A DNA stretch of 48,530 nucleotides from Candidatus Daviesbacteria bacterium (GTDB taxonomy: Bacteria; Patescibacteriota; Microgenomatia; Daviesbacterales; UBA10151), in the NCBI GenBank assembly GCA_016176465.1, contig JACOXD010000009.1:1-48530 (forward strand). The letters are read 5' to 3'. A program made the translations under genes and the position numbers. The notes beneath the pieces are model-generated. The model did no database searches. It saw nothing but the letters and a program-made list of their open reading frames with translations, and had not been told where the DNA came from. The first letter of the stretch is position 1. Every line of letters begins with the position of its first letter. Positions 31,640 through 33,246 of this stretch are shown here, one piece after another.

Positions 31640-32371
31640 ATGCCAAGGAAAAAAAGTACCTCAAGAAAAAAAGAGACTCAAGCAGAGAATCTTTCAGAGC
31701 TAGATTCATCTGAAAAAAATTTTAGTTTTTTTAAAAATAAAAAATTTCTTATTCGTAGAAAAGCTCTGCTTATTCATAGAAAATTCTTTGTTTTAGGATT
31801 TTTGATTCTGATTCTTTTAGTAGTTTTTTATTTTTTGTATAAAGTTTTAGTTTTTGCCTTTGTTGATGGTAAGCCTTTAACTAATATCCAGTACTTTCAA
31901 AAATTAAAAAGCTTAGAAACACAGTCTGGTTTAAATGTACGCGAACAAATGATAGTTGAGAGAATTATTGAAAGTGAAAAGCAAAAACAAAATATATCAA
32001 TAAGCGATGAAGATTTAAATAAAGCTTTGGCTAAAGAAGAAGAGTTAGGTGGCGGAAAAGAAGCATTTGAACAATCGCTGAGTATTCAAGGCATAGATAA
32101 AGATTTATTTAGAGAATATATTTTAAAACCTCAACTTCTTAAAGAGAAATTATTCGGAAAAGATGCTGCTGTTTCTGAAAAGCAAGTTGATGATTACATT
32201 ACATCAATACAAAAACAGCAAGAGGAAGCAGGTCAGGAAGTTAGCGAAGTAGATGAAAAAATGAAGTCTCAAATAAGGATAAGTTTAAGAAAACAAAAAA
32301 TTGATCAAAAATATAATGATTGGTTAAAACAAATTTTAGAAAGTAATAGAATTATTTATCTGTACAAATAA
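31640..32371 (+). CDS. Membrane-anchored SurA-N-like chaperone
   Basis: 243 residues. Basic cytoplasmic start, one membrane helix at about residues 49-72 (FFVLGFLILILLVVFYFLY), then an extracytoplasmic helical domain starting VDGKPLTNIQYFQKL and with EQMIVERIIESEKQKQNISI, matching the SurA/PrsA N-terminal chaperone domain. No parvulin PPIase domain follows. It precedes the DsbA-like gene by 32 bp, so the two probably act together in folding exported proteins. Confidence 0.7.
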   Translation: MPRKKSTSRKKETQAENLSELDSSEKNFSFFKNKKFLIRRKALLIHRKFFVLGFLILILLVVFYFLYKVLVFAFVDGKPLTNIQYFQKLKSLETQSGLNVREQMIVERIIESEKQKQNISISDEDLNKALAKEEELGGGKEAFEQSLSIQGIDKDLFREYILKPQLLKEKLFGKDAAVSEKQVDDYITSIQKQQEEAGQEVSEVDEKMKSQIRISLRKQKIDQKYNDWLKQILESNRIIYLYK

Positions 32372-32403: not shown

Positions 32404-33246
32404 ATGAATTCAGCTCCAAAGATTAATCTATCCACTCCGGTTGCAATAGTAATAGGAGCCGTTTTAATTTCTATTGCAATTTTATTTAGCAATGGAACTT
32501 TAAAATTTAACTTACTAAGTAATGCTCCTAAAGTTACAACTAATACCACGTCACCTTCTTACTCTGAAAAATTAATAGCTTTGGCTAAGGAAGCTGGGTT
32601 GAATGAATCAAGGTTTGAAAGCTGCTTAGAAGATGGGAAACAAAAAGAAGAGGTAGGAAAAGATCAGCAAGCTGCTTTATCAGCCGGAATAAGTGGTACT
32701 CCTGGGTTTATCGTTGGAGCTACAAACAGTAGTGGAGAAATAGAAGGCGTCAGAATTGGCGGAGCTTTCCCTTATGAAACTTTTCAAATAGTATTTGACT
32801 CGCTCGCTAGTAAAACTTTGGCGGAAAAAATAGTAGAAGATGTCGTGTTGAATTTATACCCTGATGATGAAGTGCAAAGGGAACAAGTTAAAAAAGATAG
32901 CTTAGGGGTTGGTAAGGCAAATGTTGATGATGATCCTGTTTTGGGCAGTAAAGATGCTCCAATCACGATGATTGAATTTTCTGATTATGAGTGTCCATTT
33001 TGTAAGCGACACTTCATCCAAACGTTACCTAATTTAATAAAAAATTATATTGATACAGGTAAAGTAAAATTAGTTTATAGAGATTTTATAGCAGTAGATG
33101 GAGTTTATCCTCAGGGCCATAACCCTGCTGCAACAAATAATGCTGTTGCTGCTAACTGTGCAATGGAACAAGGAGGAGATAGTGCTTACTTTAAAGTTCA
33201 TGATTTAATATTTAACAAAACTCAATCTAATGGAGTTGGAATTTAG
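32404..33246 (+). CDS. DsbA-like thiol oxidoreductase with halves swapped
   Basis: 280 residues. Membrane anchor at about 12-30. Residues 53-135 (YSEKLIALAKEAGL, SCLEDGK, cis-Pro loop SGTPGF with Pro100, IGGAFPYETFQ) match the C-terminal half of a DsbA domain. Residues 175-280 (VLGSKDAPITMIEFSDYECP, CPFC at 197-200, then HNPAATNNAVAANCA, YFKVHDLIFNKTQ) match its N-terminal half. In normal proteins the end of the second part runs directly into the start of the first, so this looks like a true circular permutation. Catalytic Cys pair and cis-Pro are all present. See findings. Confidence 0.8.
   Translation: MNSAPKINLSTPVAIVIGAVLISIAILFSNGTLKFNLLSNAPKVTTNTTSPSYSEKLIALAKEAGLNESRFESCLEDGKQKEEVGKDQQAALSAGISGTPGFIVGATNSSGEIEGVRIGGAFPYETFQIVFDSLASKTLAEKIVEDVVLNLYPDDEVQREQVKKDSLGVGKANVDDDPVLGSKDAPITMIEFSDYECPFCKRHFIQTLPNLIKNYIDTGKVKLVYRDFIAVDGVYPQGHNPAATNNAVAANCAMEQGGDSAYFKVHDLIFNKTQSNGVGI

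Follow-up and report, generated by a model that had tools for sequence, protein, structure and literature searches.

The DNA stretch analyzed in this work (hereafter, the window) comprises 48,530 nucleotides of the forward strand of contig JACOXD010000009.1 (positions 1 to 48,530) from the assembly GCA_016176465.1 of a Candidatus Daviesbacteria bacterium. An open reading frame located on its plus strand at 32404-33246 (ATG at 32404, stop codon at 33244-33246) encodes a protein of 280 amino acids, in which a membrane anchor is followed by the second half of a DsbA domain, a linker and the first half of the same domain. Upstream, at 31640-32371, lies a gene of a membrane-anchored protein with weak similarity to SurA_N, which was below the curated cut-off (21.5 against 30.8 bits), and to PrsA-type peptidyl-prolyl isomerases, although no isomerase domain was recognized in it. 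Downstream lies a gene of a small cupin, of which the listed ORF overlaps the end of the DsbA ORF by 17 bases (33230-33246) if its first ATG is used, while a second in-frame ATG is found just after the stop codon (about 33248). A glutaredoxin and an FKBP are encoded nearby.

Domain organization of the permuted protein

A Pfam search detected the DSBA profile (PF01323) positions 115-186 at residues 47-127 (E 5e-14; 52.9 bits against the cut-off of 25.6) and the Thioredoxin_4 profile (PF13462) positions 3-92 at residues 175-275 (E 6.5e-26; 91.9 bits against 23.2), i.e., as two separate pieces in swapped order. When Thioredoxin_4 was searched as one family in the genome, the first part of the protein was covered by profile positions 96-150 and the second one by positions 3-92. 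The halves are therefore complementary, each being present once, with the break between profile positions 92 and 96 and with nothing duplicated or lost at the cut. Neither a leftover C-half downstream nor a leftover N-half upstream of the gene was found in the window. These results confirm the swapped order of the halves proposed in the initial annotation and support its interpretation as a clean circular permutation.

The N-terminal membrane anchor (32434-32490, residues 11-29) is predicted as a helix and is followed by a flexible linker up to about residue 50, modeled with low confidence at residues 33-46. The initial annotation considered this anchor to be gained, which is wrong: the ordinary-order paralogue encoded on contig C13 of the same genome matches it at 49% over residues 8-43, and all 105 ordinary relatives examined possess an N-terminal hydrophobic segment, the anchor being present in 147 of 147 relatives. 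The C-terminal half of the DsbA domain, placed first, occupies 32560-32811 (residues 53-136) and contains Cys74 (32623-32625) and the cis-Pro loop SGTPGF with Thr99-Pro100 (32698-32703). The linker joining the old C-terminus to the old N-terminus (32812-32919, residues 137-172) is predicted to form helices at residues 140-151 and 156-165. The N-terminal half, placed second (32920-33243, residues 173-280), harbors the active-site motif CPFC (32992-33003, Cys197 to Cys200), which in the model is located between strand 187-193 and helix 198-216, and Cys252 (33157-33159). The GTPGF sequence (98-102) lies at the start of predicted strand 101-107. Both CPFC and Thr-Pro are invariant in the protein alignment (A1), and they align with Cys30/Cys33 and Pro151 of E. 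coli DsbA, respectively.

Distribution and conservation

A search of 57 relatives, a scan of 84,980 species genomes and a 380-genome sample of the phylum, followed by mapping of N-half and C-half profiles on every ORF of the fetched loci, gave 42 distinct permuted ORFs against 105 ordinary ones. By our counts, at least 28 of the 380 phylum genomes carry a permuted ORF at E<=1e-35, and in the window's own family these are 12 of 34 genomes. One of the genomes (G417) carries two very different permuted DsbAs, L118 and L153, the latter with a 74-residue linker between the halves, far longer than in the other proteins (15-42 residues in most relatives).

The window genome is a draft in 18 contigs, and tandem dsbA genes, which could be mis-joined, do occur in relatives. 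However, even without read data, misassembly is excluded by the same architecture in dozens of other assemblies from many families, including the single-contig genomes G159 and G197. Neither is this a decaying gene fragment, as all 42 permuted proteins keep CPxC and Thr-Pro, and the pairs of closest permuted orthologues show dN/dS of about 0.08, indicative of purifying selection. An artefact can thus be practically ruled out, and we regard these sequences as a functioning gene family.

Outside Patescibacteria, in 194 Nanoarchaeota genomes the only hits that span most of both halves in swapped order are, where examined, tandem two-domain proteins with the N-C-N-C arrangement. In 299 Pseudomonadota genomes none was found at a strict threshold, and of the 80 loci from the species-wide scan only two, both patescibacterial, are permuted. 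Restriction of the permuted form to Patescibacteria is therefore suggested, but not proven. Noteworthily, DsbA-like proteins with three N-C domains in a row in one chain were observed in Myxococcota (loci L105, L106 and L113, the third domain being cut by the locus end in L113), with two such genes side by side in L105 and L106.

Predicted fold and position of the cut

AlphaFold2 modeling based on the 15-sequence permuted alignment gave a mean pLDDT of 86.8 and pTM of 0.77, with blocks of 92-98 over most of the core. The best PDB match of the model is 1un2, the engineered circular permutant CPDSBA_Q100T99 of E. coli DsbA, aligned over 233 columns, while the other DsbAs among the top hits align over about 100-130 columns only. 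The sequence of 1un2 was verified to have the order Q100-K189, GGGTG, A1-T99. Since the Foldseek superposition has rmsd of 7.9 A (TM 0.56 by target length), this match supports shared connectivity more than detailed geometry. A second model, of the permuted protein L123 cut one helix later, has pLDDT of 86.0 and pTM of 0.72; 1un2 is its fourth hit by E-value, but the one aligned over most columns of the top group (186 columns, TM 0.61, rmsd 4.7). A viral structure library gave no match.

It could alternatively be supposed that the permuted chain does not close on itself and works as a domain-swapped oligomer, in which the first half of one chain pairs with the second half of another. Indeed, some linkers are only 15-19 residues long, and ScsC and BcfH, DsbA-like proteins which are probably oligomeric, appear among the fold matches of the second model. 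Yet 1un2 closes with a 5-residue linker, and its title states a preserved global fold, while a confident monomeric fold was predicted for two differently cut proteins. Thus, domain swapping appears very unlikely.

In a joint alignment with E. coli DsbA, which is approximate in this helical region, the natural chain ends fall at E. coli positions 95-104 in 36 of 42 proteins, at 108 in two and at 117-119 in four, whereas the engineered permutant was cut at 99/100. Besides the active-site cysteines, the family has Cys74 in the C-half and Cys252 in the N-half. Over 147 proteins the two are both present (137) or both absent (10), but never single (Fisher p 1e-15), and all 42 permuted proteins have both. 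Related rows share ancestry, so that the p-value overstates their independence, but the absence of any singleton is clear and is the signature of a structural disulfide. In the ordinary order this predicted bond encloses the loop that is cut; in the permuted order it would staple the halves together, which would make cutting there cheap.

Origin of the permuted form

A tree of the re-ordered halves (147 rows) needs 12 changes of order, and a single clade of permuted proteins is rejected (delta lnL 180, AU p=0.00014). A more careful tree of 86 rows needs 13 changes (bootstrap 11-13), at least 7 of which are forced by well-supported branches, and no bootstrap tree shows one clade. The window protein groups with two proteins of another family, from genomes G057 and G157 (96/69), inside a supported clade of 24 proteins, of which 20 are ordinary; no neighborhood shared by the window gene with these nearest permuted relatives was found. 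The permuted proteins L034, L036 and L118 are likewise placed in supported clades of mostly ordinary proteins. Holding the window group, L034, L036 and L118 together is rejected (p=0.001), although the smaller AU tests, including this one, were chosen after seeing the tree and are weaker. Both halves of L034 are nearer to ordinary genes (70% and 62%) than to any permuted one (58% and 46%), and the cut points differ by a helix between lineages.

A single permutation in an early patescibacterium, spread by descent and transfer, with ordinary genes re-acquired by horizontal transfer, would agree with the finding of permuted forms only in Patescibacteria so far and with the many deep branches of the tree that are permuted and unresolved. 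Considering the above results, we find this scenario unlikely. It should be noted that the trees rest on 173 columns with many weak branches, and that a change counted on the tree may be a gain or a loss; because the ordinary order is the ancestral state of DsbA, several gains are the simplest reading, but transfers that blur the count cannot be excluded. The permutation thus probably recurred.

In genomes G024 and G004, of sister genera, an ordinary and a permuted gene, respectively, lie between the same neighbors: inositol monophosphatase, peptidyl-tRNA hydrolase (Pth), DsbA, DUF3105, ZIP transporter, and further shared genes. As these two genes fall in different clades, replacement at the same place is as possible as permutation in place. 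A DUF3105 protein with an N-terminal hydrophobic stretch is encoded directly after dsbA in both an ordinary and a permuted locus (L170 5761-6354 and L180 3582-4304), suggesting a functional partner of unknown role. In genomes G013 and G016 the permuted gene also lies by peptidyl-tRNA hydrolase, whereas the window gene is at another place, the single Pth gene of its genome being on contig C6.

The route through tandem duplication and deletion, also considered in the initial annotation, remains plausible but unshown. Two-domain N-C-N-C proteins exist in Nanoarchaeota (L158, L159 and L160 from genomes G513, G613 and G519; frames of 442-507 aa), frames of similar length recur in that phylum, and they are plausible raw material for permutation. 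However, no C-N-C or N-C-N-C intermediate was found in Patescibacteria, as the 418- and 439-aa frames of genomes G034 and G052 proved to be single N-C domains.

Inferred function

Taken together, these data allow us to propose with high confidence that the gene encodes a membrane-tethered, extracytoplasmic DsbA (Thioredoxin_4) protein circularly permuted in nature, its role as a thiol:disulfide oxidoreductase being inferred without enzymatic data. The chain is cut in the exposed loop of the helical subdomain, equivalent to E. coli DsbA residues 99-104, and the two halves are predicted to fold back on each other into one ordinary DsbA fold, bringing CPFC next to the cis-Pro loop. In several genomes, including G004 (100% complete), the permuted protein is the only Thioredoxin_4 protein detected, which argues that it does the ordinary job. 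In the window genome (93.8% complete), which encodes two DsbA-type proteins, neither VKOR nor DsbB was detected, but one DsbD-type transporter is present (contig C10, 11861-12481), which would equally fit a reductive or isomerase role. The absence of a detectable VKOR or DsbB, together with the FKBP-type and SurA/PrsA-like folding factors among the neighbors, could indicate that the fold is intact but serves as a membrane-tethered chaperone or binding module; conservation of CPxC and cis-Pro in all 42 permuted proteins and the lack of any other detected Thioredoxin_4 protein in several genomes make this improbable.

The one obvious mechanical consequence of the permutation is that the tether attaches to the helical cap instead of the first strand, which, as we suggest by inference, re-orients the active site relative to the membrane and its partners. 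It is somewhat more likely than not that Patescibacteria have permuted their membrane-anchored DsbA many times independently at one pre-adapted loop enclosed by a structural disulfide, and that a selective advantage, most simply the new tethering point, keeps favoring the permuted form. Natural circular permutations are usually thought of as rare, old, single events, whereas here a textbook enzyme fold appears to have been permuted repeatedly in one bacterial group, at the position that protein engineers found tolerable 25 years ago. This offers a natural replicate experiment on how permutation happens, why it is tolerated and what it buys. It is also a practical warning, since order-dependent annotation shows such proteins only as two partial hits. 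The wide distribution, the probable recurrence and the coincidence with the engineered cut were not foreseen in the initial annotation.

Comparison with known systems

In the literature searched, which was mostly open-access, no natural circularly permuted DsbA and nothing on the order of DsbA halves in Patescibacteria was found. Ordinary-order Thioredoxin_4/BdbD/TsdA-type DsbA proteins, e.g., C. diphtheriae DsbA/TsdA (4pwp) and B. subtilis BdbD (3eu3), share the domain, the active site, the cis-Pro loop and, in most relatives examined, the anchor and the second Cys pair with the permuted proteins, whose identity in the N-half to ordinary patescibacterial members is up to 73%, but have the halves in the usual order. 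The tandem two-domain DsbA proteins of Nanoarchaeota contain a C-half followed by an N-half inside the chain, an arrangement which a duplication-and-deletion route would pass through, but they comprise two complete domains with nothing lost. The nearest natural rearrangements of a DsbA-like fold are the TRXL1 and TRXL4 domains of UGGT (PMC7687155, PMC8024514). TRXL1 only moves the helical bundle to the front, leaving the thioredoxin subdomain uninterrupted, and TRXL4 is discontinuous, whereas in the window protein the cis-Pro strand pair and the last helix are also moved; the UGGT domains lack CXXC (PMC4255179), are catalytically inactive and belong to a eukaryotic glucosyltransferase.

The closest system is the engineered permutant CPDSBA_Q100T99 (PDB 1un2; Manjasetty et al., 2004, doi 10.1107/S0907444903028695; random permutation of E. 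coli DsbA: Hennecke et al., 1999, doi 10.1006/jmbi.1998.2531; both cited through PMC12667903, PMC3281007, PMC2213659). It has the same order of halves, the same cut loop and a preserved fold. E. coli DsbA is, however, a remote relative, and 1un2 is a laboratory construct with a GGGTG linker and no anchor, whereas the natural proteins possess a membrane anchor, longer linkers and a second Cys pair.
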